NCBI GenBank assembly: GCA_030429495.1
Contig: JAUIFH010000001.1
Location: 434,001-498,000, forward strand
Source of the DNA: Alphaproteobacteria bacterium
GTDB lineage: Bacteria > Pseudomonadota > Alphaproteobacteria > Rhodobacterales > Rhodobacteraceae
DNA length: 64,000 bases
Direction of reading: 5' to 3'
Below are positions 25,669-49,776 of this stretch, in pieces (the stretch's first letter is position 1; each line of letters opens with the position of its first letter). The notes under the pieces were generated by a model. The model was given only the letters and a program-made list of their open reading frames with translations. It made no database searches and was not told the origin of the DNA. Both the position numbers and the translations under genes were made by a program.

Positions 25669-25682
25669 GCCATCTCACACTC

Positions 25683-29398: not shown

Positions 29399-31407
29399 CA
29401 GAGGTGATCGAGACCGTCTGGATCCCCATGCCGGACGGGGTGAAGCTGGCCGCGCGGCTGTGGCTGCCCGACGGCGCACGGCAAATACCGGTTCCGGCAG
29501 TCTTGGAATACATCCCCTATCGCCGCCGCGACCGCACCCGGATGCGCGACGAAAGCATGCATCCCCATTTCGCTGCTGCGGGCTATGCAGCGATCCGTGT
29601 CGACATTCGCGGCTATGGCGACAGCGAGGGGGTCGCTGAAGACGAGTATTCGCTCCAGGAGATTCAGGACGGCCACGATGTCATTCAGTGGATCGCCGAA
29701 CAGAATTGGTGCGACGGCAATGTCGGCATGTTCGGCAAAAGCTGGGGCGCCTACAATTCGTTCCAGGTCGCCGCGACCCGCCCGCCCGCGCTGAAAGCCA
29801 TCGCGCCCGTCATGGGCTGCGATGACCGCTGGCGCGAAGACATCCATTTCTACGGCGGTTGCCTCGCCAACGACAATTTCTGGTGGGGTTCGATCATGCA
29901 GGTTTACAACGCTTTCCCACCTGATCCAGCAATCGTCGGTGCGGACCGATGGGAAACGATGTGGCGCGAGCGTCTTGAAGCGATGCGGTTCTGGCCCGCA
30001 ATGTGGCTGGAGCATCAGACCCATGACGATATGTGGCGGCGCGGGTCGATTTCCGAGAACTATGCCGATGTCGAGGTGCCGGTCTATTACTTCGGCGGAT
30101 GGGCGGACCTCTTCCGAGATACGCCGTTCCGCATCGCTGAGCATCTGAAAGGGCCGGTGAAGGTGCTGATGGGGCCATGGGCGCATCTCTATCCGCATGA
30201 AGGCAGCCCGACCCCAAAGGCCGACTTCGTGGCTGAGTTGATCCGGTTCTGGGACCACTGGCTGAAGGGGCAGGATACCGGGCTGATGGATGAACCGCCG
30301 CTCAGGTTCTGGTTGCAGGACAGCGTTCCACCTGCGGGCGTTCAGCCCCACCGCCCCGGACGTTGGGTGGAAGAGGCCCGGTGGCCATCGCCGAATGTGT
30401 CCGACCGGGTGCTTTGGCTCAATTCTGACGGGCTGGGCGATAATCCGCTAGGGGAAGCGGACATGTCCATCCGCTCGCCGCAGACGTTCGGTTCGGCGGG
30501 CGGCGATGCGTGTTCCTTCGCGATCCCCGGCGACATGCCGACCGACTGCCGGAGCGACGCGGGCGGTGCGCTGCAGTTTCGTGGCGCGCCTCTCGATGCG
30601 CCCGTCGATATCCTCGGTCAGCCGACACTCGACCTTCGCGTCAGCGCGGATCGCGAACAGGGGATCGTGGCGGTCCTGCTGATCGACGAGGCACCGGATG
30701 GTGCGCAGACCTTGATTACGCGCGGGTTCTGCAACCTGACCCATCGGCACGACGACACAGCGCCCGCTGCGATCATCCCGGGTGAGGAGATGGCGGTGAC
30801 GGTGCCGCTGCATGGCATCGGCTATCGGGTCTTGGAGGGCCACCGGCTGGTGGTGCAGGTCGCATCGGCCTATTGGCCGATCCTCTGGCCCGCGCCTGAG
30901 CCGGTGACGCTGACGTTAAACGCCGGAACTTCGGCGCTTCATCTGCCGGTGCGCGCCGTGGCACCCGACGCCCCCGAACCGAGAGAGCTGCCAGACCCGC
31001 CAAAGCGCGATGGCCGTCGCCCGGTCACTCGGGTTCGGGAGGGGTCGATGGAGCGTTCGATCCATGCCGACCTGACCACAGGCGTCGAAACCCAACGGTT
31101 CTTCCTCGACGGCGGCGTCTTCGGCCCCGTCGGCGATCTAAGACTCGACGATATCGGCACGGTGCTGGGCGATATCTCGGACCGCCGTTACACGATCCAC
31201 GCGGCCGACCCGCTGACCGCACGCGCGACGATGGAGCAGGAGGCGCGGTTCACCCGCGATGACTGGAAGGTGCGGATCAAGACATACTCTGAGCAGACCG
31301 CCACGAAGTCAGACTTCCACCTGACCGCCCGCATCCAGTGCTGGAGCGACGACGATCTGTTCTTCGAAGACGACCAGACCTTCACCATCCCGCGCAACGG
31401 AATGTAA
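29395..31407 (+). CDS. CocE/NonD family hydrolase (copy 2)
   Basis: A 670-residue serine hydrolase translated from an ATG overlapping the importer ATPase stop. Catalytic residues are S116 (GKSWGA), D238 (GGWAD) and H264 (GPWAH). The C-terminal jelly-roll is followed by about 120 residues of beta-rich sequence ending in the acidic 'SDDDLFFEDDQTF'. It lacks a signal peptide, so it acts on a compound after import. It is three bases from copy 3. Copies 1, 2 and 3 share a start region of the type 'xIPMPDGVKLAARxWLP'. Confidence 0.87.
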   Translation: MTEVIETVWIPMPDGVKLAARLWLPDGARQIPVPAVLEYIPYRRRDRTRMRDESMHPHFAAAGYAAIRVDIRGYGDSEGVAEDEYSLQEIQDGHDVIQWIAEQNWCDGNVGMFGKSWGAYNSFQVAATRPPALKAIAPVMGCDDRWREDIHFYGGCLANDNFWWGSIMQVYNAFPPDPAIVGADRWETMWRERLEAMRFWPAMWLEHQTHDDMWRRGSISENYADVEVPVYYFGGWADLFRDTPFRIAEHLKGPVKVLMGPWAHLYPHEGSPTPKADFVAELIRFWDHWLKGQDTGLMDEPPLRFWLQDSVPPAGVQPHRPGRWVEEARWPSPNVSDRVLWLNSDGLGDNPLGEADMSIRSPQTFGSAGGDACSFAIPGDMPTDCRSDAGGALQFRGAPLDAPVDILGQPTLDLRVSADREQGIVAVLLIDEAPDGAQTLITRGFCNLTHRHDDTAPAAIIPGEEMAVTVPLHGIGYRVLEGHRLVVQVASAYWPILWPAPEPVTLTLNAGTSALHLPVRAVAPDAPEPRELPDPPKRDGRRPVTRVREGSMERSIHADLTTGVETQRFFLDGGVFGPVGDLRLDDIGTVLGDISDRRYTIHAADPLTARATMEQEARFTRDDWKVRIKTYSEQTATKSDFHLTARIQCWSDDDLFFEDDQTFTIPRNGM

Positions 31408-31410
31408 GCC

Positions 31411-33432
31411 ATGCCCGATATTTCTGTCCGAACCGACTTTCCCAGAAAGATCCGCGAGATCGAGAATTGCTGGATCCCGATGCCCGACGGCACGAAGCTG
31501 GCAGCACGCATCTGGCTGCCCGAGGATGCCGAGGCCGATCCCGTGCCCGCGATCCTTGAATACCTGCCCTACCGCAAACGCGACGGAACGGTGGAACGGG
31601 ACCACCTGACCCATCCCTATTTCGCGGGCTTCGGCTATGCTGGCGTCCGGGTGGACATGCGCGGCACCGGCGACAGCGAAGGCGTGTGCGAGGGCGAATA
31701 CCTGTTGCAGGAACAGGACGATTGCCTCGCCGTGATTGACTGGCTCGCCGCCCAGCCCTGGTGTTCCGGCAAGGTTGGCATGATCGGCATCAGCTGGGGC
31801 GGGTTCAACGGCTTGCAGGTTGCCGCGCGGCGTCCGCCCGCGCTTGGTGCGGTCATCTCGCTCTGCTCGACCGATGACCGCTATGCCGACGATATCCACT
31901 TCATGGGCGGCGCCTGTCTCACCGACAAGCTGGCCTGGGGCGCGACCGCCTTCGCAATCGCCCATACCCCGCCTGACCCGGCGATCGTCGGCGAAAGGTG
32001 GAGGGATATGTGGAAGGAGCGGCTGGAGGGCAACGGGCTCTGGATGCTCGACTGGTTCCGGCATCAGCGGCGCGACGACTTCTACCGCCATGGCTCGGTC
32101 TGCGAGAACTATGCCGATATCGAGGTGCCGGTCTATGCGGTCGGCGGCTATGCCGACGGCTACACGAACCCGATCTTCCGGATGATGGAGCATCTGCCGG
32201 GGCCTCGTAAGGCGCTGGTGGGGCCATGGGCGCACAAGTATCCGCATTTTGCCACCCCCGCGCCGCGCATCGGCTTCCTGCAGGAATGCCTGCGCTGGTG
32301 GGATCAGCATCTGAAGGGGATCGACACCGGCATCATGGATGAACCGATGTTGCGGCTCTGGATGCAGGACCCGGCCCCGCCCAGCCCCTATGCGGTGGAC
32401 CGTCCGGGCCGCTGGCTCGGCCTCACCGGCTGGCCGCACGCCGGGCAGGAGGTAAAGGTGCTGCATGTCACGTCCGACGGGATGCAGGAAAGGGCCTCGG
32501 ACGATGCCGCAACCATCACGCTCCGCTCGCCCGAGAACGCGGGCTCTGCGGCCCAGACATGGTGCATTTACGGCACCGGTCCCGACGGAGCGCTCGACCA
32601 GAACACCGAGACGGGGAAGATGTCGTTTTTCGAAACCGCAACCCTTGCGGACGACATGGAGATCCTCGGCTTCCCGCTGCTGAAGACCCGCGTGGTCAGC
32701 GATGTGGCGCAGCCGAACCTCGCTGCCGTGCTGTCGATGGTCGCGCCGGACGGCACCGCGCGGCTGGTCTGTTTCGGGGTGCTGAACCTCACGCATCGCA
32801 AAAGCCATTCCGACCCCGAACCTCTGCCCAAAGGCAAACCGGTGGACGCGGTCCTGCAACTGAATGTCATCGGTCAGCGGATACCGGCGGGCTACAAGCT
32901 CCGGCTCGCGCTCGCCACGGCCTATTGGCCGATCATCTGGCCTTCGGCGGAAAAGGCAACGCTCTCACTCACCGATACGCGGCTGGAATTGCCGCTGCAT
33001 GACCGGGCGCATGACGGGCCGGAACTGCCGGTCTTTGGCCCGGCCGAAGGCGCGGCACCGCTTCGTGCAGAAACTCTCGAGGCGGGATCGGGCCACAGGA
33101 CCCTGACAAAAGACTACGCCACGGGGATCGAGACCTATACCCGCTATGGCGACACCGGGCGGGTGCGGCATCTGCACACCGACATGACCGTCCGCTATGT
33201 CGATGAAGACCAGTTCCGCATCCATCCGGACGATCCGAATTCGGCCACGGCGACGATGCGCTGGCACAAATCCTACGGGCGCGGGGACTGGCAGGCGGAG
33301 GTCGCGGTGTCGGTCACAGTCGCGGCTTTGCGGGACGTCTGGCAGATCGACGCGCATCTCGAGGCGCGGGACGGTGAAGGGCTCGTCGCTGAAAAAACAT
33401 GGTCCGAGGCGGTCCCGAGAGACCTTGTCTGA
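31411..33432 (+). CDS. CocE/NonD family hydrolase (copy 3)
   Basis: A 673-residue paralogue of the preceding gene. Triad candidates are S128 (GISWGG), D249 (GGYAD) and H275 (GPWAHK). The conserved 'HPYFAGFGYAGVRVDMRGTGDSEG' region forms the oxyanion side of the active site. A C-terminal jelly-roll and terminal beta extension match copies 1 and 2. Two consecutive large esterases in one operon suggest sequential cleavage of two bonds, or a heteromer. Substrate unknown. Confidence 0.87.
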   Translation: MPDISVRTDFPRKIREIENCWIPMPDGTKLAARIWLPEDAEADPVPAILEYLPYRKRDGTVERDHLTHPYFAGFGYAGVRVDMRGTGDSEGVCEGEYLLQEQDDCLAVIDWLAAQPWCSGKVGMIGISWGGFNGLQVAARRPPALGAVISLCSTDDRYADDIHFMGGACLTDKLAWGATAFAIAHTPPDPAIVGERWRDMWKERLEGNGLWMLDWFRHQRRDDFYRHGSVCENYADIEVPVYAVGGYADGYTNPIFRMMEHLPGPRKALVGPWAHKYPHFATPAPRIGFLQECLRWWDQHLKGIDTGIMDEPMLRLWMQDPAPPSPYAVDRPGRWLGLTGWPHAGQEVKVLHVTSDGMQERASDDAATITLRSPENAGSAAQTWCIYGTGPDGALDQNTETGKMSFFETATLADDMEILGFPLLKTRVVSDVAQPNLAAVLSMVAPDGTARLVCFGVLNLTHRKSHSDPEPLPKGKPVDAVLQLNVIGQRIPAGYKLRLALATAYWPIIWPSAEKATLSLTDTRLELPLHDRAHDGPELPVFGPAEGAAPLRAETLEAGSGHRTLTKDYATGIETYTRYGDTGRVRHLHTDMTVRYVDEDQFRIHPDDPNSATATMRWHKSYGRGDWQAEVAVSVTVAALRDVWQIDAHLEARDGEGLVAEKTWSEAVPRDLV

Positions 33433-33474
33433 ACGCGGGCCGGGCATGACCCCGCGGCGAATGGAGAAACGTGA

Positions 33475-34335
33475 ATGGGTGCATTTCCCGACTTTGGGCC
33501 GGGCGTGGAGATTCACAGCCTGACCGCGAACGGCGTTACCATGCGGGTCGCGATCGAGGGCCGAGGCCCCGACATCGTGTTCATCCCCGGCGGGGACACC
33601 ACTGCCGAGGGCTATTCCCAGCAATTCGCGCGGCTCCGCGACAGTTTCCGCTGCATCTCCTACGACCCGCGTGGCGCTGGGGCCACGACCTCGCCGCCCG
33701 CGCCATGGACCATGGCCGATTATGCCCGCGACTGCGCGGCGGTGATCGACGCCTTCTGCGACGGTCCGGCAATCGTCTGTGGTCTGTCGCTGGGTGGTCT
33801 GGTGACACAGCAGATGGCCATCGACTTTCCGAACAAAGTCAGGCTCGCCATCCCGATGGGAACCTCGGCCTATATCGACGGCTTCACCCGCGACTGGATG
33901 CAGGCAGAAATCGACCTGCGTAAGGACGGGATTGTGCTGCCCGACTACTTTCTCGCGCCGCATTACGCGCCCTATGCCTTCCCAGCCAAGGCCCTTGGCG
34001 ACCCCATCCTCTGGGCCGAGATCAAGGCCGCCTATACCGAGCGGTTCCGCGACCGGAACCCGAAAGACCTGATCGACCAGTGGGAGGCCTGCCTCGAATT
34101 CGATTGTCGGGAGGGTCTGAAGACCTGTCCCGTGCCGATCCATGTCGTCGCCTTTTCCGAGGATGTTCAGACCCCGCCCGCGATGTGCCAAGTGGTTTCT
34201 GACCTCGCGCCAAAGGGTGTTCTCCACGAAATCCCCGGCCTCGGCCATGTCTCGGTCGCCCGCCACCGGCCCGATATCGTCGCGGCAAAGCTGCGCGAGA
34301 TCATTTCGGAGGAACTGGCGCATGCGGCGACCTGA
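33475..34335 (+). CDS. Alpha/beta-fold hydrolase
   Basis: A 286-residue classical alpha/beta hydrolase with nucleophile S105 in GLSLGG, an 'FIPGGD' oxyanion loop near residues 36-41, 'YDPRGAGATTSP' at 63-74, and catalytic His about 258 (GLGHVSV). GGAGAAACGTGA precedes the ATG. It is the third hydrolase of the importer operon. It could be an esterase, lactonase or C-C hydrolase; nothing in the sequence separates these. Confidence 0.85.
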   Translation: MGAFPDFGPGVEIHSLTANGVTMRVAIEGRGPDIVFIPGGDTTAEGYSQQFARLRDSFRCISYDPRGAGATTSPPAPWTMADYARDCAAVIDAFCDGPAIVCGLSLGGLVTQQMAIDFPNKVRLAIPMGTSAYIDGFTRDWMQAEIDLRKDGIVLPDYFLAPHYAPYAFPAKALGDPILWAEIKAAYTERFRDRNPKDLIDQWEACLEFDCREGLKTCPVPIHVVAFSEDVQTPPAMCQVVSDLAPKGVLHEIPGLGHVSVARHRPDIVAAKLREIISEELAHAAT

Positions 34336-34362
34336 CGCCCCGCGCAGCAAAGACGGCCAGCG

Positions 34363-35853
34363 ATGACCCGGATCGCGATCGCCGGTTTTCAGCACGAAAC
34401 AAATACCTTCGCCCCCGGTCGTGCGGGTATGGCGGAGTTCGAGATGGCCGACAGCTGGCCCGCGCTGCTGACCGGCGCGGAGGTTGTCGAAGGCACGCGC
34501 GGCATGAACCTGCCCATAGCCGGTTTCGCGGCTGCCGCCGGCGAGGTTCCCGGCATCACGCTCGTCCCGATCCTTTGGTGCGCCGCCGAACCATCCGGAC
34601 CGGTGACCGACGACGCCTTCGACGTGATTGCCGGCCGTATCGTCGACGGCGTGCGGAAGGCAGGCGCGGTCGATGCGGTCTATCTGGACCTGCATGGCGC
34701 GATGGTCACGGAAAGCCTTGAGGATGGCGAGGGCGAACTGCTCCGCCGATTGCGCGGTCAGGTCGGCCCCGAATTGCCGGTCGTCGTCAGCCTCGACCTG
34801 CATGCCAACCTGACCGCCGACATGGTGCGCCTTGCGAGCGCGATCTGCATCTACCGGACCTATCCGCATCTCGATATGGCCGAAACCGGTGCGCGTGCCT
34901 TCGCCGCCCTTCAGGCCCAACTCGGAGGGTGGAGGCCCGCAAAGGCGTTTCGACAGGTTCCTTATCTCGTGCCGCTTCACGCCCAGCACACGGGCAGCGA
35001 ACCGGCGCGGTCGCTTTATTCGGGGCTCGACCGGCTTGCGGATGGACCAACGACCTATGCAGAACTCGCTCTTGGCTTCACCGCCGCCGACATCGCGGAT
35101 GCCGGGCCAGCTATCGTCGCGTATGCGCCCTCGGAAAGTGAAGCCGACAAGATGGCCGATGCCGTCCTCGCGGATATGCTCGAGGCCGAGTCCCGGTTCG
35201 ACTGTGCCCTTCTGTCTCCCGCCGCCGCCGTCGCTCGGGCCATGGCTGCGCCGCCGGGACGGCCGGTCGTGATCGCCGATGTGCAGGACAATCCCGGCGC
35301 GGGGGGAACGGCGGACACGACCGGGCTAGTGCGGGCACTGGTCGATCAGGGCGCGACGGGTGCGATCCTCGGATTGATGCACGATCCCGAACTGGCCATG
35401 GCAGCGCATCAAGCCGGGGCAGGGGCGCTCATAACGGGCGCGATGGGCGGCCGTTCGGGCATCCCGGGCGACGGGCCCTTCATCGGGCAGTTCCGCGTCG
35501 AAACACTCAGCGACGGTCAGTGTCACTATACCGGCGAGATGTATGGTGGGGGCGTGGCCACACTGGGGTCGAGCGCGGTGCTGCGCGTGATTGACGGCAA
35601 CAGCGACATCCGCGTCGTCGTCACCTCAATCCGCAACCAGTGCCTCGACCGCGCGCAATTCACCCATTTCGGCCTCAAGCCCGAGACGGCACGCATCGTT
35701 TGCGTCAAGAGCACCGCCCATTTCCGGGCCGATTTCGAACCGCTGGCGCATGAGGTCCTGCTGGTAAACGCCCCCGGTGCGTTTCCCTGCATTCTGTCGG
35801 ATGTCGTCTACAAGAAGTTACGGCCCGGAGTACGGCTTGGCCCATCCTCCTAG
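34363..35853 (+). CDS. M81-family metallopeptidase, MlrC-like (microcystinase C family)
   Basis: A 496-residue protein with the family-defining N-terminal 'FQHETNTFAP' (H11), 'LDLHGAMV' (D109, H111), 'LDLHANLT' (H147) and 'YPHLDMAETG' motifs. The C-terminal domain includes 'VVIADVQDNPGAGGTADTT'. MlrC hydrolyses the linear tetrapeptide formed from microcystin; the wider family is mostly uncharacterised and zinc-dependent. It ends the importer and hydrolase operon and probably cleaves an amide bond late in the pathway. Many Rhodobacterales carry MlrC-like genes without a known microcystin link, so the toxin itself should not be assumed. Confidence 0.85.
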   Translation: MTRIAIAGFQHETNTFAPGRAGMAEFEMADSWPALLTGAEVVEGTRGMNLPIAGFAAAAGEVPGITLVPILWCAAEPSGPVTDDAFDVIAGRIVDGVRKAGAVDAVYLDLHGAMVTESLEDGEGELLRRLRGQVGPELPVVVSLDLHANLTADMVRLASAICIYRTYPHLDMAETGARAFAALQAQLGGWRPAKAFRQVPYLVPLHAQHTGSEPARSLYSGLDRLADGPTTYAELALGFTAADIADAGPAIVAYAPSESEADKMADAVLADMLEAESRFDCALLSPAAAVARAMAAPPGRPVVIADVQDNPGAGGTADTTGLVRALVDQGATGAILGLMHDPELAMAAHQAGAGALITGAMGGRSGIPGDGPFIGQFRVETLSDGQCHYTGEMYGGGVATLGSSAVLRVIDGNSDIRVVVTSIRNQCLDRAQFTHFGLKPETARIVCVKSTAHFRADFEPLAHEVLLVNAPGAFPCILSDVVYKKLRPGVRLGPSS

Positions 35854-35890
35854 CAGGGATCATCTGGTGACCTTCCGCTGCCAATCCTTC

Positions 35891-35972
35891 TGTACACATC
35901 TGTACGTTATCGCCACACCGTAAGCACTACAAAGGCATAATATGCGTACTTTAGTCCGTTCACATGTGTACA
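35891..35972 (+). promoter_or_regulatory. Inverted TGTACACA/TGTGTACA pair, possible operator of the 36036 operon
   Basis: TGTACACA at 35891-35898 is exactly complementary in inverted order to TGTGTACA at 35965-35972, with a further TGTACG at 35901. They lie in a locally AT-rich spacer upstream of the DMGDH-P450-MttB-TetR operon. The downstream copy lies within the spacer of the putative promoter, so a bound repressor would block transcription. The TetR regulator at the end of the operon is the obvious candidate. Confidence 0.4.
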
Positions 35973-35987
35973 TAATGATGATATAGA
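35959..35987 (+). promoter_or_regulatory. Putative sigma-70 promoter for the DMGDH-P450-MttB-TetR operon
   Basis: TTCACA (35959-35964) and TATAGA (35982-35987) are separated by 17 bases, each a reasonable match to the -35 and -10 consensus. About 48 bases separate the -10 box from ATG 36036. It is the best promoter-like signal I saw in the window. This is sequence resemblance only. Confidence 0.45.
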
Positions 35988-36035: not shown

Positions 36036-38438
36036 ATGAAGTCGCACTACAGGGTCGTCGTGATCGGGGGTGGGGTTGTGGGAACCTCGGTGCTCTATCA
36101 TCTGGCCAAGCTTGGCTGGACGGATGTCTGCCTGATCGAACGCTCGGTGCTGACGGCGGGGTCCTCATGGCACGCGGCGGGCGGGTTTCATGCCCTGAAC
36201 GCCGATCCGAACATCGCCTCATTGCAGGCCTACACGATTGATCTTCTGAGCGAGATCGAAAAGGAAAGCGGCCAGTCCGTCGGCATGCATATGACGGGCG
36301 GCATGACGCTTGCCGGAACGCCCGACCGCTGGGAATGGCTGCAATCGGCTTACCGCACCTTCCAATCCATCGGGATTGAGGACGTGCGACTGATCACGCC
36401 CGAGGAAGCCAGGGAAAAGTGTCCGGTGATGTCCACCGACGGCATCCTTGGTGGCATGTGGGCGGATCGAGAAGGCTATGTCGATACGACCGGCACAGTG
36501 CAGGCCTATGCCGGTGCAGCGAAAAAGCGTGGCGCGACGGTGATCGAACATAACCGCGTGCTGGAACTGAATCAGACAGCAGAGGGCTGGCAGGTCGTGA
36601 CCGAGAAGGGCACCGTCACCTGCGAACATGTCGTCAATGCCGCCGGTCTCTGGGCCAAGCAGGTTGGCCGGATGGCGGGGATCGAACTGCCGGTCTCCCC
36701 CCTCAACCACCATTACCTGATCACAGAAACGATCCCCGAGATCGCCGAACTCGACCACGAGGTGCCGCTGGTCGTCGACCTCGAAGGCTTTACCTATATG
36801 CGGCAGGACCAGAAGGGGATGCTTCTGGGCATCTACGAGATCGACCACCAGCACTGGATGATGGATGGCGCGCCGTGGGATTACGGGTTCCAGCTGCAGC
36901 AGGAAGACCCCGACCGGATCGAGCGTGAACTGACGCTCGGCTTCGAACGCTATCCGGTGCTGCAGAAGGTCGGGATCAAGACCTGGGTCAACGGTGCCTT
37001 CACCTTCTCGCCCGACGGCAACCCGCTGGTCGGCCCGGTGCGCGGAAAACCCGGTTACTGGTGCGCCTGTGCGGTCATGGCAGGCTTCCTGCAAGGCGGC
37101 GGCGTCGGCAAGAGCCTTGCCGAATGGATCATCGAGGGCGAGCCGGAGGCCGACATCTTCGGCATGGACGTCGCGCGTTATGGCGCCTTTGCCGAGAACA
37201 AGGAATTCATCCGCCAGACGACGGGCCAATTCTATACCCGCCGCTTCGTGATGACCTATCCGAACGAACAGCTTCCCGCCGGCCGTCCGATGAAAATGGC
37301 GCCGGCGTACAGCGAGATGACGGCGGCCGGATGCCGTTGGGGCGCGAGTTACGGGCTGGAACTGCCGCTTTACTTCGCGCCCGAGGGATTCGAAGAAAAG
37401 CCGACGCTGAAACGGTCGAACGCCTTCCCGCTCGTGGCCGACGAATGCCGCGCGGTGCGTGAGGCGGTGGGTCTCCTCGATATTTCCGCCTTTTCTCGGT
37501 TTGAGGTGAAAGGCCCGGGGGCAGAAGCCTGGCTCGACCGGGTCATGGCCTGCAGATTGCCCGGGCCGGGCCGGGCCCGACTGGCGCCAATGCTGTCGGA
37601 TGCGGGCAAGCTGAAGGGCGACTTGACCGTCTTCAACTGGGGCGACGGCACATGGTGGATCATGGGCAGCTACTACTTGCGCGCCTGGCACATGCGCTGG
37701 TTCGCCGACCATTCGGGCACCGGCATGATTCTGCGCGACATCTCGGACGCGACTGTCGGGTTCAGCCTGTCCGGCCCGAACAGCCGCGCCGTGATCGAGA
37801 AACTGACCGAAGGTCCGATCGCCGACCTGCCTTTCATGGGCTGTGGTACCTTCGATATCGGCCTGATCCGGGCGAAGGTTGGCCGCCTGTCGGTCGCCGG
37901 GGAACTTGGCTATGAAATCCACTGTGGCGCGGCCGAACATATCGCGCTCCGTCGGGTGCTACTGGAAGCGGGCGCCGGTCATGGCCTGCGCGAGGTCGGC
38001 TTCAACGCACTCCTGTCGCTCAGGTTGGAAAAATCCTTCGGCATCTGGAGCCGCGAATTCACCCAAGCCTATACGCCGGGTGAAACCGGCATGGACCGCT
38101 GGATCGCCTGGGACAAGGGCGACTTCATCGGCATGGCAGCGGCCGAGGCCGAACGAAAGGCGGGACCTTCACGCCGCGTCGTGATGCTGGAAGTGGATGC
38201 GACGGATGCCGACGCCTCGGGCTATGAGCCGGTCTGGCAGGACGGACGCCGGGTCGGCTTCGTCACCTCTGGCGGCTATGGTCATACAATGGGCAAGTCC
38301 TATGCGCTTGCCATGATCGACCAGGGCGCGAACGAGGTCGGGACGAAGCTCACAACCCATATCGTCGGGCAGGAGCGATCGGCCCGCGTGATTGCAGCCT
38401 CCCCCTATGATCCGAACGGAAAGGCGATGCGGGGATGA
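36036..38438 (+). CDS. FAD-dependent dimethylglycine/sarcosine dehydrogenase-like protein with GcvT domain (copy A)
   Basis: An 800-residue flavoenzyme starting at ATG 36036 behind AGGGAG; an in-frame GTG nine bases earlier is less likely. It has the FAD motif [10 protein letters not shown] (residues 9-18) and the 'SSWHAAGG' motif, whose His46 aligns with the histidine that binds FAD covalently in dimethylglycine dehydrogenase. A DAO fold follows to about residue 380, then the FAO_M linker, GCV_T and GCV_T_C aminomethyltransferase domains. Such enzymes oxidise an N-methyl group and may pass the C1 unit to tetrahydrofolate. It is first in an operon with a P450, an MttB-like protein and TetR; the P450 starts one base after its stop. 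Confidence 0.88.
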
Positions 38439-38439
38439 G

Positions 38440-39660
38440 ATGAGCGGGCCGGAAACCGACTTCAACGCATTGACCAGCGCGCGCTTCCGCGCCGATCCAT
38501 ATCCGATACTGGCCTATATGCGCGAGCATCATCCCGTCTTCAGGCTTGCTCCGGGCCTGACGGAAAGCTGGCATGTCTTTCGCTATGGCGATGTGCGCGA
38601 TCTCTTGCTGAAACCTGACCTTTTTTCCTCAGATCGCGGTCTGCAGGGCGACGGTGATCTGGCCGACGCCAATGTTGCGTTTCTTTTCAACAACATGATC
38701 TCGGCCTCAGGCGAGAAGCATCGCCGCCTGAGAATGCTGGCCAATCGCGTGTTCATGGCCAAAGCCATCGAGGCCCTGCGCCCGGCAGTGGAATCGGTCG
38801 TTGAGGAACGGATGGAATTTGCCCTGTCAGCCGGTGAATTCGATCTGGTTGAGGATTTCGCAGCGCATATCACCGTGGCGATGATCTGTGCCGTCCTCGG
38901 TCTGCCAAAGGCCGACATGGCGCGCATCCGCAGCTGGACGGCGGTTCTGGGTGACAACTCGGGCGCCGTAACATGGCTTGAGAAGATGGACCCCGAGCTG
39001 GTCGCGCGCGGTCGCCGGGCCGCGGAGGAAATGACGACCTACTTCCGCGACTTCCTGTCCCGTCCCGCGGCCGGTGACAGCTTGCTCGCGACATTCCGCG
39101 ATCTTGAGGTTGAAGGGGAGAGGCTGTCTGAGGGGGAGCTTCTGTCGATGGCCATGCTTCTACTTCTGGCCGGGAACGAGACGACGACGAACCTGATCAC
39201 CAATTTCGTGCGTCTGCTTGACGCCTTTCCCGTGGAAGCCGCGCGGCTCCGGCCGAACCCCGACATGACCGACACTGCGGTCGAGGAAACGCTGCGCATG
39301 CGCAACTCGATCCGGAATATAGATCGCTTCGCTTTGGAGGATATCGAGATGCACGGGGTTACGATCCCGAAGGGCGCCCGCGTCGTGGTCTGGCTGACGG
39401 CTGCAAACCGCGATCCGCAGGTTTTCGACGCCCCGGATGACTTTCAACCAGACCGCGCGCCCAATCGCCACCTCGCCTTCGGACAGGGGATGCATATGTG
39501 CCTTGGCGCCTCGCTTGCGCGGCTGGAAACCCGCATCGCGGCCCGGGCCATCCTAACGCAGACTTCTGCGATTGATCTGATTGGTCCCGCTGAGCTTGGC
39601 GTCAACGCCAATTTCGACAACGTGACGCGCCAGATGGTGCGGTTTCACGGGAAGGGGTAG
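38440..39660 (+). CDS. Cytochrome P450
   Basis: A 406-residue soluble bacterial P450. The I-helix oxygen-activation motif '[10 protein letters not shown]' (about residues 243-252) has Asn rather than the usual His/Asp before ETT. The ExxR is 'EETLR' (about 282-286), and the haem ligand is Cys354 in '[10 protein letters not shown]'. No ferredoxin or reductase gene lies nearby, so electrons must come from shared partners. The start follows the flavoenzyme stop by one base. In this operon an oxidative N- or O-dealkylation role is plausible, but it could hydroxylate the carbon skeleton instead. Confidence 0.92.
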
Positions 39661-39664
39661 ACGC

Positions 39665-41200
39665 ATGAGGGAGACACATCGAACCGGACGCAGACGCGCC
39701 AGCGGCCAACAGACGCAAACCCAGCGCGAAACCAACTACCGGCAGTTGCGCAATCCCTTTCCGCCGATGCGGGTGTTTTCGGACGACCAGATCGCGGCGA
39801 TGCACGAAACGTCCCTGCGCGTCCTCGAAGACCTTGGCGTCCGCGTCCTGCTGCCTGAGGCCCGGGCGATCTACCGTGCAGCGGGCGCGAGGGTCGACGA
39901 AGACAGCCAAATGGTCTTCCTCGGTCGCGACATCGTGGCAGCGGCACTGGCCACGGCGCCGCGCAGCATCACGGTGCGGGGCGGCGCGCCTGAACGCGAC
40001 CTTCTGCTGGAGCTAGGCAGCCTGACATTCCAGCCCGGTGCGGGTTGTCCCCATGCGACCGATCTGGAACGCGGCAGGCGACCGGGCAGTGAGCGCGATT
40101 TCCGCGAACTCGTTCAACTGACACAAGCCTTCGATGTTCTTCACATGGTGCCACCACTGGTCGAACCGCAGGACGTGCCGGTGCATCTGCGCCATTACGC
40201 CACGATGAAAGCTCAGATCGAATTATCGGACAAGGTGCCGTTCGTGTTCTCCCGCGGCACACCGCAGGTGCTGGACAGTTTCGAACTTCTGAAACGCGCC
40301 CGTGGCCTCGATGACACGGCCTTCGCGGCCGATCCCCATTGCTACACGATCATCAACACCAACTCGCCCCGCCAGATCGACATTCCGATGGCACAGGGTC
40401 TGATCGACTTCGCCCGAGCCGGTCAGGTGGCAATTGTAACGCCCTTCACATTGATGGGGGCGATGGCGCCGATCACGGTCGCGGGTTCAATCACGCTCAG
40501 CCATGCCGAGGCTCTGGCTGCGATCACGCTCAGTCAGCTTGCCCGACCGGGCGCGCCTGTGATGTACGGCACTTTCACCTCGAACGTCGACATGAAATCC
40601 GGCGCCCCGGCGCTTGGCACGCCCGAGCATTTTAAGGCTTCGCTTGCCGCCGGGCAGTTGGCCCGGCTGATCGGCCTGCCCTGGCGCTGCGCCACCGGAT
40701 CGGCGGGCAATATCAACGACGCGCAGGCCGCGCATGAGACACAGTTCGCGCTCTGGGGCTGTCTCATGGCGGGGGCGACGACCATCATTCATGCCGCAGG
40801 CTGGCTGGAAGGCGGGCTGAGCATCAGCTACGAAAAGATGATCACCGATATCGAGGCGCTTCAGATGGTGGCCGAGATGTGCGTCGAGACCCCGTGTGGT
40901 GCGGACGAGATCGGGTTTGAGGCTATCGCAGAGGTCGCACCGGGCGGGCATTTCTTTGCCACCGCGCAAACCATGACCCGATACCAGACGGAGTTCTACG
41001 AACCGCTCGTCGCGGACTGGTCGAATTTCGGCACCTGGACCGAACGCGGCGCTATCGACGCCAATACCCGCGCGACGGGGATCTGGAAGCGCATCGTGGC
41101 CGAGGACTGGCGCGCGCCTCTCGATCCCGGCAGGATGGATGCACTGAACGACTACATCACGCGCCGGACCGCCGAAGGCGGCGCACCGCCAGAGAGCTGA
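39665..41200 (+). CDS. MttB-family (trimethylamine methyltransferase-like) protein without pyrrolysine, copy 1
   Basis: A 511-residue TIM-barrel methyltransferase of the MttB superfamily. Recognisable blocks include 'HETSLRVLEDLGVRV' near the start, 'FQPGAGCPHATD', and 'GTFTSNVDMKSGAPALGTPE' with 'WRCATGSAGNINDAQAAHE' further on. The frame has no internal amber codon, so it is a non-pyrrolysine member, like the glycine-betaine demethylase MtgB. Those enzymes move a methyl group to a corrinoid protein, but no corrinoid-binding protein or activator is encoded in this window. Its partner and substrate are unknown. It lies four bases after the P450 stop and two bases before the TetR start. Confidence 0.85.
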   Translation: MRETHRTGRRRASGQQTQTQRETNYRQLRNPFPPMRVFSDDQIAAMHETSLRVLEDLGVRVLLPEARAIYRAAGARVDEDSQMVFLGRDIVAAALATAPRSITVRGGAPERDLLLELGSLTFQPGAGCPHATDLERGRRPGSERDFRELVQLTQAFDVLHMVPPLVEPQDVPVHLRHYATMKAQIELSDKVPFVFSRGTPQVLDSFELLKRARGLDDTAFAADPHCYTIINTNSPRQIDIPMAQGLIDFARAGQVAIVTPFTLMGAMAPITVAGSITLSHAEALAAITLSQLARPGAPVMYGTFTSNVDMKSGAPALGTPEHFKASLAAGQLARLIGLPWRCATGSAGNINDAQAAHETQFALWGCLMAGATTIIHAAGWLEGGLSISYEKMITDIEALQMVAEMCVETPCGADEIGFEAIAEVAPGGHFFATAQTMTRYQTEFYEPLVADWSNFGTWTERGAIDANTRATGIWKRIVAEDWRAPLDPGRMDALNDYITRRTAEGGAPPES

Positions 41201-41202
41201 TC

Positions 41203-41865
41203 ATGACACGCGACAACGGCAAGATCGTGAAACTGCAGCGCGAGGACGCGAGTACCGGCCCGCGGGTCACGCGCGACGACTGGCTGAACGTCGCCCGCGA
41301 CATCCTCGTATCCGACGGCGTGGCAGAAGTGAAAGTGCTGACCATCGGCGAACGCCTGCAGGTCGCCCGGTCGTCGTTCTACTGGTATTTCAAAAGCCGC
41401 AAGGACCTCCTCGACGCGCTTCTTGCGGACTGGGAGACAACGAACACCGCGATCCTCGTACGCCACTGCGAGATGCCCGCCAAAACCATTACCGGCGCGA
41501 TCTGCAACTTTTTCCGCTGCTTCGTCGATCCGGCGCTCTTTGACCAGCGGCTCGACTTCGCCGTCCGCGAATGGGCCCGCCGCGACGGATCGGTCCGCCG
41601 GGTTATCGACCGGGCCGACGACACGCGGCTGGCGGCCGTAGCCGCGATGTTCCGCCGCCACGGGTATTCGGACTATGAGGCTGATGCGCGCGCCCGCATC
41701 CTCTACTTCATGCAGCTCGGATACCATGCTCTCGATCAGAGCGAGCCGATGCGGATCCGCATGGGGCGGCTTGAAGGCTATCTGCTGGGGTTTACGGGGC
41801 AGGAAGCACCGGCGAACGAGATCAAGGCTTTCCGCGCCTGGGCAATTGGAGAAGCGGGCGGATAG
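41203..41865 (+). CDS. TetR-family transcriptional regulator
   Basis: A 220-residue regulator with the N-terminal helix-turn-helix 'VLTIGERLQVARSSFYWYF' (about residues 45-63) and a divergent ligand-binding C-terminal domain. It is the last gene of the DMGDH-P450-MttB operon and probably autoregulates it, perhaps through the TGTACACA inverted pair upstream of 36036. No second promoter is apparent in the two-base gap before it. Confidence 0.88.
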   Translation: MTRDNGKIVKLQREDASTGPRVTRDDWLNVARDILVSDGVAEVKVLTIGERLQVARSSFYWYFKSRKDLLDALLADWETTNTAILVRHCEMPAKTITGAICNFFRCFVDPALFDQRLDFAVREWARRDGSVRRVIDRADDTRLAAVAAMFRRHGYSDYEADARARILYFMQLGYHALDQSEPMRIRMGRLEGYLLGFTGQEAPANEIKAFRAWAIGEAGG

Positions 41866-43504: not shown

Positions 43505-45514
43505 TCAGCCGACGGCGATGCGTGGCCGGCCCTGGGCGGTGACCCGAAGCTTCGCTTCGATGAACATGGGCTGTCCTTCGACCTCGATCTCGGAAATGTC
43601 GCGCTCGGTCGTCAGGCGCATCTTCTCCACGCCAGCGACACGGGCCAGCGCGGTCGCCTCCTCCGTCAGCGAGGTCTCGAGCGCGAGGAGCGCCGCGTCG
43701 CGGTCGTTGAAGCGTTTCGGGCCATCGGGCAGGTGGGCGGCGTAAAGGCCGGCGGCGGGGCTGGTGACGATCCCTTCGACATGCATGGCGATCTGGCCGA
43801 CAACGGCGCCGATCGCGTTCGCGACGCCGGCATGGTCCGGCAGCACCATGCGCGCACCAAGCTGTTCGCCCACCGCGCCGTAGTAGCTTGGCGCCGACGC
43901 GCCGAGGCCGATCACCGGAACGCCAAGCTTCGCCGAGATACGAATGACGTCCGAATGGGCGGCGAGGCCAGCGCGCATCAGGGGATGCCGCGCCAGCGTT
44001 TCGGGCGCCTCGCCCCAGTCGCGGCCGTCTTCGGCAAACGCAGCCTCAAGCAGGCAGTCGGCGGTCTGTGCGGTCAACTGGACGATGATCGCCTCGGCCA
44101 GCGCTTCGGGACCCGCCGCGATCCGATCGCCGCGCCCGTTTCGTCGCTTGGCGAACAGGGTCACGGCCTTGCGTGCGGCGTTCGTGTCCCAGGTGTCGAG
44201 GCGGCCAAGCACATGGGATGCGTCTGACGGCGTGACGCCGGCGATCATCACATACCCGCGCGCGACAAGGCGCATCAGTGCAGGCTGTTCAAGCCGGGTC
44301 CGCACGCAATCTGCAAGCCGGGCCGGCCCGTCGATCAGGCGTTCCACCACTGCCGCCTCACGGCCGGTGAGGCCGCCGGGCGGCGTGTCTTGCCACATCG
44401 GGATGGCAAAGCGCCCGTCGGCCTCGCCCACCGAGTCCTGGGTTAGCCAGCCGTCAAGAGCACCGTGCACAAGATCGGGATGATCCTGCGCGATCAGAGA
44501 GACCGGAACCAGCCGGCGGGGCCCCAACCGGAAACCGGTCTTGAGCCCCTCGACCAGATGGACTTCGCTGTCGCCACCAAGGCCCGTGGTGCGCATCGCC
44601 ACGGCCTCGACCATCGTGCGGAAACTGCCGACGCGCGCGCCGAGCGGGTCGATCGCCGGCTTGCCACCACGAAGCAGGCACACATCGGTCGTCGTCCCGC
44701 CGATGTCGGATACGAGTGCATCGGTCTCCCCGGTCAGCCAGCTCGCGCCTGCGATGGAGGCGGCCGGGCCGGACAGGATGGTCTCGATCGGCCGGTCGCG
44801 GGCCAGCTCTGCTGATACCAGCGCGCCGTCGCCGCGAACGACCATCAGCGGGGCGGCGATGCCAAGCTCCTGCATATGCGCCTCGCAGGCGGCGATGAGC
44901 CGGTCGATCACGCCGATCAGGCGGGCATTCAGAACGGCGGTCAACGCCCGGCGCGGACCGTTCAACCCGGCGGACAGCTCGTTCGAGCAGGTGACCGGCT
45001 TGCCCGTCACCGTGCGGATAAGGTCGCGTGCGGCGTTCTCGTGCGCGGGATTGCGCGTGGCAAAGCTTGCGGCAACGGCAAAGCCCGTGACGTCGGGGCC
45101 AAGGACTTCCAGTCCCGCTTCAAGCGCCGCAAGGTCGAGGGGCGCCGCCTCGATGCCGCCGTGGTTGTGACCGCCCGCGAGGCGGATCACCGGATCGCCC
45201 TTCAGCGCGTCCTCCAGCCCCGCGCGGCCAAGTTCGCCCTCGTCGAAGCCGATGAAGACGAGGGCCACGCGCCCGCCCTGGCCCTCGACCAGCGCGTTGG
45301 TGGCCAGTGTCGTGGACAGCGAGACCATCGCCACCTCTGCAGCGGCAATACCGGCTTTCGCCAGCGCGGCGTCAATTGCGCGGCCGACACCGGGGGCGAG
45401 ATCCGGCCGTGTTGTCAGCGCCTTGGCCGAGGCGATGACGCGGTCTTCGCCCTCGTCCAGGATCACCGCATCGGTGTATGTGCCGCCGGTATCGACGCCC
45501 AGAAGATATGCCAT
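43505..45514 (-). CDS. Hydantoinase/oxoprolinase A-like ATPase (HyuA family), without HyuB
   Basis: A 669-residue protein with the N-terminal 'GVDTGGTYTDAVILD' nucleotide-binding motif and the second phosphate loop 'SDIGGTTTDVCLLRGG'. These are diagnostic of HyuA, N-methylhydantoinase A and acetone-carboxylase-type subunits. They activate a ring or carbonyl oxygen with ATP and normally need a HyuB partner, which is not encoded in this window. AGGAACGGCAC precedes ATG 45514. It begins nine bases after the GMC oxidoreductase stop and is the last gene of a six-gene minus-strand run. Hydrolysis of a hydantoin, lactam or carbamoyl compound from methylated amino-acid breakdown is plausible but unproven. 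Confidence 0.85.
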   Translation of the reverse strand: MAYLLGVDTGGTYTDAVILDEGEDRVIASAKALTTRPDLAPGVGRAIDAALAKAGIAAAEVAMVSLSTTLATNALVEGQGGRVALVFIGFDEGELGRAGLEDALKGDPVIRLAGGHNHGGIEAAPLDLAALEAGLEVLGPDVTGFAVAASFATRNPAHENAARDLIRTVTGKPVTCSNELSAGLNGPRRALTAVLNARLIGVIDRLIAACEAHMQELGIAAPLMVVRGDGALVSAELARDRPIETILSGPAASIAGASWLTGETDALVSDIGGTTTDVCLLRGGKPAIDPLGARVGSFRTMVEAVAMRTTGLGGDSEVHLVEGLKTGFRLGPRRLVPVSLIAQDHPDLVHGALDGWLTQDSVGEADGRFAIPMWQDTPPGGLTGREAAVVERLIDGPARLADCVRTRLEQPALMRLVARGYVMIAGVTPSDASHVLGRLDTWDTNAARKAVTLFAKRRNGRGDRIAAGPEALAEAIIVQLTAQTADCLLEAAFAEDGRDWGEAPETLARHPLMRAGLAAHSDVIRISAKLGVPVIGLGASAPSYYGAVGEQLGARMVLPDHAGVANAIGAVVGQIAMHVEGIVTSPAAGLYAAHLPDGPKRFNDRDAALLALETSLTEEATALARVAGVEKMRLTTERDISEIEVEGQPMFIEAKLRVTAQGRPRIAVG

Positions 45515-45523
45515 GTGCCGTTC

Positions 45524-47146
45524 CTAACGAGCGTCCTTGAGGATGCGTTCCGCACCGATCCAGCCGACGAGAATGCTCGGCGCATTGGTATTGCCGCCGA
45601 TCAGGGTTGGAAAGACTGAAGCGTCGCAAACCCGCAGACCGTCGACGCCGCGCAGCTTCAGGTCGGGGTCGACCGCCGAAGTTGCGGGGTCCGCCCCCAT
45701 CCGCACGGTGCAGGAAGGGTGAAAAACGGTTCCCGAACGCGACCGGATATCGGCGACAAGGTCGGCGTCGGATTGCACGTCCGGCCCCGGCCGAAGCTCT
45801 TCCGCGATCAGCGAGCGGATCGGCTCCTGCCCGGCGATGTGGCGCAGATACTTTACTGCAGAGAGCATCTCGGCGACGTCGCTGTCGGTCGAGAAAGCGT
45901 TCGCGACGATCTTCGGGTGGACGAAAGGATCGGCACTGTTCAGCGTGATCTCCCCGCGGCTCGTCGGGCGGCAGTTCGACAGGCCGATGGACAGGCCCGA
46001 AAACGGATCGGGTGTCAGCAGGGGCCGCTCGCCGACGCGCGGAACCAGCGTCGAGAAGGCCTGGAAATAAAGCTGCATGTTGGGGCGCGGCAGATCGGGC
46101 GAGGTCCGGAAGAATCCGCCAGCATGGTTGATCGACTTCGCCAGCGGTCCGGTGCCGGCGATGAGATACTTCATCCCGACAAGCGCCTTCCCCCACCACG
46201 GACGCAGGATATCGTTGTAGGTCGGCACCGTCATGCGCCAGGTGTAGTTCAGTCCCTGATGGTCATTGAGGTTCCGGCCCACATGCGGCGCGTCCGCCAC
46301 CACTGCGATTCCGTGCTCCTTCAGATGCGCGGCAGGGCCAATCCCCGACAGCATCAGCAGTTGCGGCGTCCCGATTGCGCCGCCGGACAGGATGACCTCC
46401 GCGGCGGCGAACGCTTTCTGGACAACGCCCTTCCTCCGGTATTCGACGCCGACCGCGCGACGCCCGTCGAGCAGGACTTTCGTGACATGGGCGTCGGTCA
46501 CGACGGTCACGTTCGGGCGCCGCATAGCGGGTCGCAGGAACGCACGTGCGGCCGAGTTGCGGCGGGAATTGCGGATCGTCATCTGGTAGATGCCGACGCC
46601 CTCCTGCTGGGCGCCGTTGAAATCCTCGTTGCGGGGCAGGCCGGCCGCCTCGACCGACTGCAGAAACGTATCGACCAGCGGGTGTAGGTCGGCGCGATTG
46701 GCTGATATGAAAAGCGGCCCGCCGCTGCCGCGCCGGTCGTTCCCGCCCGCCTCGTTGTCCTCGATCGCACGGTAGGCCGCGCAGGCCGCATTCCAGTTCC
46801 AGGCAGGGCCGGCTTCCGTCTCCCAGTCGTCGTAGTCGCTGGCGTGCCCCCTGATCCAGACCATCGCATTGATCGAGCTCGACCCGCCGAGGACCTTTCC
46901 GCGCGGCCAGAAATCCCGGTTTCCAGCCAGACCGGGATCGGGCTCCGTCGCATAGAGCCAGTTTACCGACGGATCGTAGAACAGCTTGCCGTAGCCAAGC
47001 GGCAACTGGACATAGAACCGGCGGTCGGTCCCGCCGGCCTCGATCACCAGAACACGGTGCCGACCGCTTGCCGACAGCCGCTCCGCCAGAACGCATCCGG
47101 CCGAACCGGCACCAACGATGATGTAATCGAATTCCGCGCCGTCCAC
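45524..47146 (-). CDS. GMC-family FAD oxidoreductase (choline-dehydrogenase-like)
   Basis: A 540-residue flavoprotein. GTG 47146 behind GGCGGAGAC is preferred to an in-frame GTG 54 bases upstream, because it places the FAD motif 'DYIIVGAGSAGCVLAE' at the usual distance from the N-terminus. The signature 'GGSSSINAMVWIRGHASDYDDW' lies near residue 80. C-terminal catalytic residues fit H476 (HPSCTVRMG) and the Asn in 'GGNTNAPSI' (about 519-521). Relatives oxidise primary alcohols such as choline. It lies 83 bases after the beta-hydroxyacid dehydrogenase gene and nine bases before HyuA. An alcohol-bearing quaternary amine is a fitting but unproven substrate. Confidence 0.9.
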   Translation of the reverse strand: MDGAEFDYIIVGAGSAGCVLAERLSASGRHRVLVIEAGGTDRRFYVQLPLGYGKLFYDPSVNWLYATEPDPGLAGNRDFWPRGKVLGGSSSINAMVWIRGHASDYDDWETEAGPAWNWNAACAAYRAIEDNEAGGNDRRGSGGPLFISANRADLHPLVDTFLQSVEAAGLPRNEDFNGAQQEGVGIYQMTIRNSRRNSAARAFLRPAMRRPNVTVVTDAHVTKVLLDGRRAVGVEYRRKGVVQKAFAAAEVILSGGAIGTPQLLMLSGIGPAAHLKEHGIAVVADAPHVGRNLNDHQGLNYTWRMTVPTYNDILRPWWGKALVGMKYLIAGTGPLAKSINHAGGFFRTSPDLPRPNMQLYFQAFSTLVPRVGERPLLTPDPFSGLSIGLSNCRPTSRGEITLNSADPFVHPKIVANAFSTDSDVAEMLSAVKYLRHIAGQEPIRSLIAEELRPGPDVQSDADLVADIRSRSGTVFHPSCTVRMGADPATSAVDPDLKLRGVDGLRVCDASVFPTLIGGNTNAPSILVGWIGAERILKDAR

Positions 47147-47229
47147 GTCCGTCTCCGCCTTTGCGCCCTGATTCCCACGAACCGGACGCCGGTGCCGCAC
47201 TCTTCGCGACGGACAAGGTCGTTTAGAGA

Positions 47230-48129
47230 CTATTCCAGCCGGGCAGGGAAGCCCGGCGCGCGCAGGTCGGTGCCAAGCCGGTCCTCCAGCAGCTTCGCGA
47301 TCATGGGGGATTCCGCGCTTCCGCCATAGGCCGCCTTCGCCTCGACATAGGTCTGCTCGGTCATTGCGGCAAGCTCCAGTGGCACGCCGAACTCCCGCCC
47401 GAAGCCAAGCGCGAAGCCAAGGTCCTTCAGTGCAAGGTCCACCGAGAAGGCGATGTTGTAAGAGCCGTTCAGGATCAGCGCTCCCTCGGTCTCGTGCACG
47501 AAGGAATTGCCCGAGGACGCGGCGATGGCATGCCAGGCCTGCGCCAGATCAAGGCCGCCGCGCTTGGCCAGCATCAGCGCTTCGGACGTGGCCTTGAGGT
47601 GGATGAAGGCCAGCATGTTGGTGATGACCTTGATGATCGCCGAAGACCCCAACGGCCCCATGTGAAAGACCCGGTCGCCCATCGCCTCCAGCGCGGGGCG
47701 GTGCAGCTCGACCAGGTCGGCGTCGCCGCCAGGCAGCATGGTGATCTGGCCCCTCGCCGCCAGATGCACGCCGCCCGTCACCGGCAGCTCCAGCATCCTC
47801 ACCCCGGCCTCCGCAGCGATTGCCGCCAGACGCAACACGTCGTCGCGGCCCAACGTCGACATCTCGATCCAGGTCGCGCCCGGCTTCATCGAAGGAAGGA
47901 TCTGACGCAGCACCTTCTCCGAAACGGCCGGCGAGGGCAGGCAGGTGATGACGTGATCGACCGCCCCGGCAAGAGAGGTAGCACTGTCGGCCCAGACAGC
48001 CCCCTTCGCCACCAGCGTATCGCCAGCACTGCGGGTCAGGTCATGGACCGTCAGGCCAAAGCCCGCCTTCAGAAGACATCCCGCGCAGTTCGTGCCCAGA
48101 TTGCCCAGTCCGATATAGCCGTAGTGCAT
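47230..48129 (-). CDS. NAD(P)-dependent beta-hydroxyacid dehydrogenase (3-hydroxyisobutyrate dehydrogenase family)
   Basis: A 299-residue enzyme with the Rossmann motif 'IGLGNLGTN' (residues 6-14), substrate-binding 'PVTGGVHLAARGQIT' (about 116-130) and catalytic K167 ('IIKVITNML'). It oxidises a beta-hydroxyacid or tartronate semialdehyde-type compound. The start lies nine bases after the MttB-like stop, so it belongs to the methylamine-type operon. It probably handles the carbon backbone after demethylation. Confidence 0.88.
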   Translation of the reverse strand: MHYGYIGLGNLGTNCAGCLLKAGFGLTVHDLTRSAGDTLVAKGAVWADSATSLAGAVDHVITCLPSPAVSEKVLRQILPSMKPGATWIEMSTLGRDDVLRLAAIAAEAGVRMLELPVTGGVHLAARGQITMLPGGDADLVELHRPALEAMGDRVFHMGPLGSSAIIKVITNMLAFIHLKATSEALMLAKRGGLDLAQAWHAIAASSGNSFVHETEGALILNGSYNIAFSVDLALKDLGFALGFGREFGVPLELAAMTEQTYVEAKAAYGGSAESPMIAKLLEDRLGTDLRAPGFPARLE

Positions 48130-48138
48130 CGCCCCACC

Positions 48139-49692: not shown

Positions 49693-49728
49693 TGCCGTCT
49701 CTCCCTGAAAACCCGTCGCTTCCACTTG

Positions 49729-49770
49729 GCTCAAATATCCCGCGGGGGCCCGGGGGCGCGAAGCCCCCGG
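49729..49770. repeat. Rhodobacterales-type GC-rich spacer element with hairpin (copy 1)
   Basis: GCTCAAATATCCCGCGGGGG is followed by CCGGGGGC-gcgaa-GCCCCCGG, an eight-bp stem with a five-base loop. It lies between the flavoenzyme stop and the MttB start. A related sequence lies at 52241. I recall this as a dispersed spacer element of Rhodobacterales, often acting as a terminator or attenuator. Confidence 0.55.
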
Positions 49771-49776
49771 CCGCTC

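Follow-up and report, generated by a model that had tools for sequence, protein, structure and literature searches.

A gene unit in which a dimethylglycine dehydrogenase (DMGDH)/GcvT fusion, an MttB-superfamily methyltransferase and a TetR-family regulator stand together recurs in many relatives of the alphaproteobacterium studied here, a member of the Rhodobacteraceae. The window, that is, the whole stretch of 64,000 nucleotides that was analyzed (GenBank assembly GCA_030429495.1, contig JAUIFH010000001.1, positions 434,001 to 498,000), contains this unit with a cytochrome P450 gene set between the flavoenzyme and MttB. The recurrent core is DMGDH/GcvT-MttB-TetR, and the four genes are not one system that evolved as a whole. 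We think it likely that the unit is a TetR-controlled catabolic operon for the stepwise N-demethylation of a betaine, probably other than glycine betaine and maybe bulkier, and that the P450 is a late accessory. The gene order, its conservation, the operator pattern, the insertion and the corrinoid module can be read from the DNA itself.

Four open reading frames (ORFs), each starting with ATG, lie on the plus strand exactly as the first-pass annotation of this DNA had placed them, with gaps of 1, 4 and 2 bases: the DMGDH/GcvT fusion (36036-38438, 800 amino acids), the P450 (38440-39660, 406 amino acids), a non-pyrrolysine MttB protein (39665-41200, 511 amino acids) and TetR (41203-41865, 220 amino acids). 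The first protein has the domains of a DMGDH-type enzyme in one chain (Pfam DAO, E = 1.2e-68, FAO_M, GCV_T and GCV_T_C). Its best solved relatives are mammalian-type (rat/human-type) dimethylglycine dehydrogenases, with which residues 4-786 of 800 align at 488 bits. A WHAAG stretch, which we take to be the surroundings of the His linked to flavin adenine dinucleotide (FAD), aligns with the solved dimethylglycine dehydrogenases as well, and the protein is predicted to be an FAD-dependent N-demethylase with a folate-binding GcvT half. The second protein matches Pfam p450 (1.9e-31) and carries LLAGNETT from residue 242, EETLR from 282 and a further stretch from 347, presumably the I-helix acid-Thr motif, the ExxR motif and the heme-Cys loop, in keeping with membership of the cytochrome P450 family. 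MttB matches MTTB (PF06253) over profile positions 2-500 of 500 (3.9e-199; 662 bits against a curated cut-off of 25); its solved relatives are 4yyc, 2qne/9yce (glycine betaine methyltransferase) and 7xcl, the first two entries being the closest. The regulator matches TetR_N (2.1e-9). None of the NCBIfam matches listed for the four proteins reaches its cut-off (for the first protein, among the 25 of 30 listed). Pyrrolysine-type trimethylamine demethylation was considered and rejected: TIGR02369 scores 271 bits against a cut-off of 525, and the MttB ORF is uninterrupted, with no amber codon.

Loci for comparison were selected by MttB similarity only, from named genomes (the best 80 of 589) and from searches of the family and the genus, where loci were available for the best matches; linkage to DMGDH and TetR was therefore not built into the sample. 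Removal of near-duplicates reduced 84 loci to 80 distinct ones, with MttB identity of at least 63%. DMGDH lies directly upstream of MttB (within 300 bases) in 67 of these 80 and within 3.5 kb upstream in 71, and TetR follows 3' of MttB in 61 of the 78 with room for it. Where both genes are listed consecutively, a 4-base DMGDH/MttB overlap is present in 19 of 43 loci, ORF starts having been called mechanically. Further downstream, an FAD oxidase of the DAO type is found in 20 and a SoxA-like protein in 4 of the 48 loci with room. Among 29 loci with MttB of lower identity, DMGDH adjoins upstream in five, downstream in reversed order in five (L064, L065, L066, L069 and L080) and on neither side in 19. 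The MttB gene is common and patchy in distribution, as it occurs at E <= 1e-150 in 71 of 248 sampled genomes of the family and at 67% identity or more in 4 of 22 genomes of the genus (the source genome counted in both). Since three of the four genes recur jointly in other species, the arrangement is not a matter of chance. The first-pass annotation had treated all four genes as one unit; this holds for DMGDH, MttB and TetR, and the P450 falls outside it, being present in 1 of the 80 loci.

Some individual loci show variants of the unit. In L020 an FAD_binding_3 monooxygenase (8282-9493) follows TetR, the position of the DAO oxidase elsewhere. In L062 (9001-11287) two abutting MttB matches stand in tandem after one DMGDH, which may reflect a duplication or an error in the assembly. 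In L046 and L048, loci from Octadecabacter-type metagenome-assembled genomes in which neither TetR nor the operator was detected, DMGDH-MttB has downstream of it, on the opposite strand, a hydantoinase-A-like gene 58-61% identical to that of the window.

A dyad, CTGGACA-N4-TGTCCAG, is present upstream of DMGDH in 40 of 47 loci. A position weight matrix (PWM) was built from these 47 orthologous upstream regions, the window being excluded from training. In a leave-one-out analysis 39 of the 47 regions scored above 13 bits, and 61 matches of at least 13 bits lay upstream, against a single one in 838,433 bases elsewhere. All 38 loci in which TetR was detected have the operator, compared with 2 of 9 without it (Fisher p = 5.7e-7, not corrected for relatedness). 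It is absent from the other seven TetR-less loci; of the two exceptions, L063 ends before the TetR position and L039 has a weaker copy. Because the presence of the operator tracks that of TetR, we infer that the operon's own TetR is its repressor, predicted to bind the dyad upstream of DMGDH. In the window, the promoter-like region noticed in the first-pass annotation contains this conserved predicted operator, as a putative degenerate copy, CTGTACACATCTGTACGT, at 35890..35907 (no strand assigned), which scores 13.3 bits and lies 146 bases before the DMGDH start. It is the sole match above 8 bits on the plus strand of the window, and both the best match and the only one of at least 10 bits in 227,708 scanned bases of the source genome; a second, much weaker match is at 35956-35973 (2.6 bits). 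The offset of -146 compares with about -40 to -110 in the other loci. The copy in the sister species G248 is likewise degenerate (10.6 bits) and in about the same place. We are less sure that TetR still controls the P450-bearing operon.

The single P450-bearing locus among the 80 (L175) belongs to this sister species, which has the same gene arrangement and the same upstream neighbors as the window; the gene is absent from the other 79, and no P450 was found at E 1e-5 in the best 80 of 589 MttB loci of the named genomes. The four-gene arrangement was thus seen in the source genome and one sister species, and does not recur outside the closest relatives. The site without the insertion is preserved in L127 (a third species of the genus, MttB 92%), L097 and L128, where the DMGDH stop overlaps the MttB start in GGATGA (an ATGA overlap). 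The window shares this DMGDH end, with the P450 start one base behind it, and the start and N-terminus of MttB differ from those of the empty-site loci. The P450 as an ancestral member of the operon is rejected on the count of loci and on these empty sites. Its nearest homologues in the genus, both uncharacterized, are 72% (G265) and 68% (G251) identical; the next among the 248 family genomes is at 40%, and a further 384 genomes sampled from the class yielded no relative at 1e-75. The G265 homologue, on a 6.6-kb contig, adjoins a glutamine synthetase. That of G251 has an ArsR/ABC region on one side and on the other a protein without a Pfam match, whose end looks LysM-like by eye; a protein with a GcvT domain, encoded 8.6 kb away where that stretch ends, is a loose end. 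No MttB was found in either stretch around the homologue, and these unrelated contexts imply that the P450 is not tied to the pathway in general. Most likely, as the sequence comparison suggests, it is an accessory oxygenase that joined an already complete unit not long ago, in the lineage of this species and its sister.

It is quite possible, if somewhat short of probable, that the P450 is a passenger, expressed because it landed in the operon and acting on something unrelated. Its position in two species only, the other contexts of its homologues and its codon usage fit such a passenger: the codon-usage deviation, 0.224, is the largest of the four genes, 13 reference genes giving 0.113-0.197. 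The clean insertion at the DMGDH stop and retention under purifying selection argue against this. Between the window and the sister species, the ratio of nonsynonymous to synonymous divergence (dN/dS) is 0.086 for the P450, 0.058 for MttB, 0.050 for DMGDH and 0.078 for TetR, with dS of 0.38-0.61 (0.45 for the P450), and the low ratio implies that the P450 is maintained.

The clade of the operon MttB (70 rows, support 0.945) has members from Ruegeria pomeroyi and Phaeobacter and does not contain any of the seven further source-genome paralogues placed in the tree; the tree leaves out the ninth paralogue (G000:C20) and MttB fragments shorter than 420 residues. The operon MttB is at most 57% identical to six other matched paralogues. 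The pyrrolysine column is a gap in all 70 rows. Docking of glycine betaine into MtgB predicted contacts with Y94, N199, R309 and H345 (PMC6855144, in the sections drawn on here). All 70 rows retain N199, R309 and H345, with Y94 replaced by Ala in 66 and Gly in 4. All four residues are present in 8 of 8 rows formed by 4yyc, the source-genome paralogues L001 and L002, and roseobacter counterparts. We read retention of N, R and H together with loss of Y94 as a weak hint that the substrate is a quaternary amine with a carboxyl group but not glycine betaine, and that it may carry a larger group.

In R. pomeroyi, aerobic glycine betaine demethylation follows a cobalamin route, as mtgC and mtgD mutants show, and PF06253 proteins were implicated in it by proteomics (Mausz et al., 2025; PMC12478193, here and below for the sections consulted). 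A genome may hold up to seven PF06253 ORFs, which may serve other methylated compounds via the same core (PMC12478193). The source genome (3.8 Mb) has the corresponding set: one RACo, two pterin-binding proteins (the pterin enzyme being assigned by domain only) and one B12 protein (PF02607), whose gene has those for DUF1638 and homocysteine S-methyltransferase nearby. Nine PF06253 genes stand beside the single PF02607 corrinoid protein, so that one corrinoid core may serve several methyltransferases. No relative of the corrinoid protein was found in the window or in the best 80 of 589 MttB loci (1.31 Mb), although that query does detect it in three other genomes; the partner would therefore work in trans, the way it does in R. 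pomeroyi. SPO2108 and SPO2134, the two PF06253 proteins whose levels rise on glycine betaine, lie within 52 locus numbers of mtgC, SPO2160 (PMC12478193). In another R. pomeroyi strain, the one searched here, the orthologue of the operon MttB is 1.29 Mb from the corrinoid gene, and for this reason it is probably neither of the two. The same strain has one MttB (L169) 28 kb from the corrinoid gene, as expected for SPO2134, with which we tentatively equate it; no MttB was found where SPO2108 should lie. A place for the orthologue among the glycine betaine genes SPO3396-SPO3400 was also considered. SPO3400 has been called a dimethylglycine dehydrogenase (PMC4744692) and SPO3398 a homocysteine S-methyltransferase (PMC4809877); the latter annotation, as given in the part of the source used, does not fit the order DMGDH-MttB-TetR, and the placement was rejected.

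These data bear on the simplest alternative, a plain glycine betaine operon in which MttB would be MtgB, DMGDH would act on dimethylglycine and a DAO/SoxA-type oxidase on sarcosine. The gene order fits the series glycine betaine, dimethylglycine, sarcosine; among solved proteins the flavoenzyme is closest to dimethylglycine dehydrogenase and MttB to 4yyc and 2qne/9yce, and three of the four docking-predicted residues are retained. Against it stand the loss of Y94 in the operon MttB, while L001 and L002 of the same genome keep all four residues, and the distance of the R. pomeroyi orthologue from the corrinoid gene, to which SPO2108 and SPO2134 are close, as far as a comparison across strains can tell. 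We consider a plain glycine betaine operon fairly unlikely.

In the scheme that we prefer, demethylation of a betaine other than glycine betaine, each reaction, the substrate class and the repression are predictions. MttB would take a first methyl group off the quaternary nitrogen and load it onto the cob(I)alamin of the shared MtgC-like corrinoid protein, and the pterin enzyme would hand it to tetrahydrofolate. DMGDH/GcvT would oxidize a second methyl group on the resulting tertiary amine, to be captured as methylene-tetrahydrofolate. Removal of the last could fall to another FAD oxidase, encoded after TetR in some relatives (DAO, rarely with a SoxA-like partner). TetR would repress the operon via the dyad upstream of DMGDH until an inducer arrives, and the P450 would be an accessory oxygenase added recently to the finished unit. 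Stepwise demethylation of a quaternary amine had been proposed in the first-pass annotation; for three of the four genes the idea is now well supported, DMGDH and MttB being linked in most related loci, in reversed order in the five distant ones. Several points weigh against the scheme. Nine of the 80 loci have no DMGDH within 3.5 kb upstream of MttB, and the loci share kinship, so that the counts are of non-independent events. The MtgD-like protein is recognized from its domain alone. The residue argument is docking-based, hence weak, and Y94 is also lost in other source-genome paralogue clades (L003, L007-like, L005/L006), so its loss does not single out the operon clade. No substrate transporter is common across genera: Ruegeria-type loci have a peptide-type ATP-binding cassette (ABC) transporter upstream on the opposite strand (11 to 13 of 80 loci), and clustering and Pfam analysis of 30 neighbors found that genes beyond the unit, among them transporters, regulators and the FAD_binding_3 monooxygenase of L020, vary by genus. 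As they differ from genus to genus, the flanking genes name no substrate.

That the P450 is an essential step, demethylating or hydroxylating an intermediate in a hybrid cobalamin/flavin/heme pathway and possibly replacing the terminal FAD oxidase, seems unlikely to us. It does sit within the unit, 1 base from DMGDH and 4 from MttB, and is conserved against the sister species. Neither P450-bearing locus has a DAO gene after TetR in the sequence covered, and the P450-less L127 of the same genus has one (truncated where its contig ends; 55.8% to the L080 DAO over 206 aligned residues). A Ruegeria-type DAO query over five genomes gave no match, the L127 oxidase being of another subfamily outside its reach. 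This comparison, however, sets two loci against one, and replacement of the oxidase is only a hypothesis because 27 of 47 P450-less loci with room lack DAO too. In addition, the closest P450 homologues lie in other contexts and the operon holds no redox partner. A P450 belonging to the design of the pathway, as first proposed, is hard to reconcile with one occurrence in 80 loci. The first-pass annotation had suggested searching for conserved co-occurrence of the four families, and had said that confinement to close relatives would speak against its idea; the three-gene core is conserved, and the P450 is so confined. A more specific version, in which a TetR-gated aerobic route demethylates a bulky algal betaine by three chemistries in succession (cobalamin, flavin/folate and, in this lineage, P450 N-demethylation or hydroxylation in place of the FAD oxidase), we regard as rather improbable. 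Very improbable is an MttB that no longer transfers methyl groups and has another TIM-barrel role with the flavoenzyme: the protein is non-pyrrolysine and no relative of the corrinoid protein was found in the best 80 of 589 MttB loci, but the source genome has the corrinoid module elsewhere, the R. pomeroyi module serves PF06253 proteins in trans (PMC12478193), and the N, R and H pocket residues are invariant.

A second MttB/DMGDH cluster (43505-54782, minus strand) lies in the window 1.6 kb from the operon on the opposite strand and comprises a hydantoinase-A-like protein, a choline-dehydrogenase-like GMC enzyme, a hydroxyisobutyrate-type dehydrogenase, a second MttB (MttB2) and two more DMGDH/GcvT fusions, accompanied by a LysR gene at 55341-56300. 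Its MttB2 falls together with L169, the R. pomeroyi protein encoded 28 kb from the corrinoid gene. At the positions of MtgB Y94, N199, R309 and H345 MttB2 has G, C, G and E, which is closer to the G, C, Y and Y of 7xcl, a pyrrolysine enzyme, than to MtgB. A match to Rfam PYLIS_3 (pyrrolysine insertion sequence mttB) above the gathering score lies within it (48522-48621, minus strand), and its ORF is uninterrupted. On the other side, 21176-35853 encodes a peptide-type ABC transporter and three peptidases of the S15 type, together with an alpha/beta hydrolase and MlrC. Upstream of its operon the sister species, too, has the hydrolase, MlrC and the last of the peptidases.

Several MttB-type genes of marine roseobacters have no assigned substrate (Mausz et al., 2025; PMC12478193). 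The unit gives one of these orphans a partner flavoenzyme, a regulator with a recognizable operator and a predicted substrate class, and its presence in Ruegeria, Phaeobacter and Leisingera, genera in which cultivated strains carry it, makes an orphan cobalamin-dependent demethylation route directly testable. The P450 insertion is an example of a unit modified in one lineage. An unrecognized use of the MttB fold in aerobes had also been suggested for this DNA; that question is largely answered by Mausz et al. (2025), since an aerobic cobalamin role of MttB-type proteins is already described there (PMC12478193). What is new here is that DMGDH-MttB-TetR is defined as a conserved unit, with a predicted operator and a testable substrate class; no description of such a unit, or of a P450-MttB unit, was found among the matches listed from the open-licence literature.

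The closest known system is MtgB/MtgC/MtgD of R. pomeroyi, which, as described in the sections consulted, shares the PF06253 methyltransferase, a common corrinoid protein, DUF1638, RACo/RamA, a pterin methyltransferase, folate-linked one-carbon oxidation and a dimethylglycine dehydrogenase as the next enzyme (PMC12478193). The operon differs in having an MttB of another clade with Ala at Y94, its own TetR and operator, DMGDH within the same operon and, in the window, the P450. The non-pyrrolysine MttB superfamily of anaerobes (MtgB, MtpB, MtcB, MtyB) belongs to the same protein family and likewise has one corrinoid core for several methyltransferases with different substrates, going by the same sections (PMC12478193), whereas the operon MttB stands in an aerobic-type genome context with an FAD/folate demethylase as its partner. 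Mitochondrial dimethylglycine dehydrogenase (4p9s, 4pab, 5l46) aligns with nearly the whole operon flavoenzyme, which is instead paired with MttB. The P450 shares its fold family and motifs with the bacterial enzymes 7y97 (YjiB) and 6gk5 (CYP267B1), a likeness at the level of fold and motif, and has no close characterized relative.

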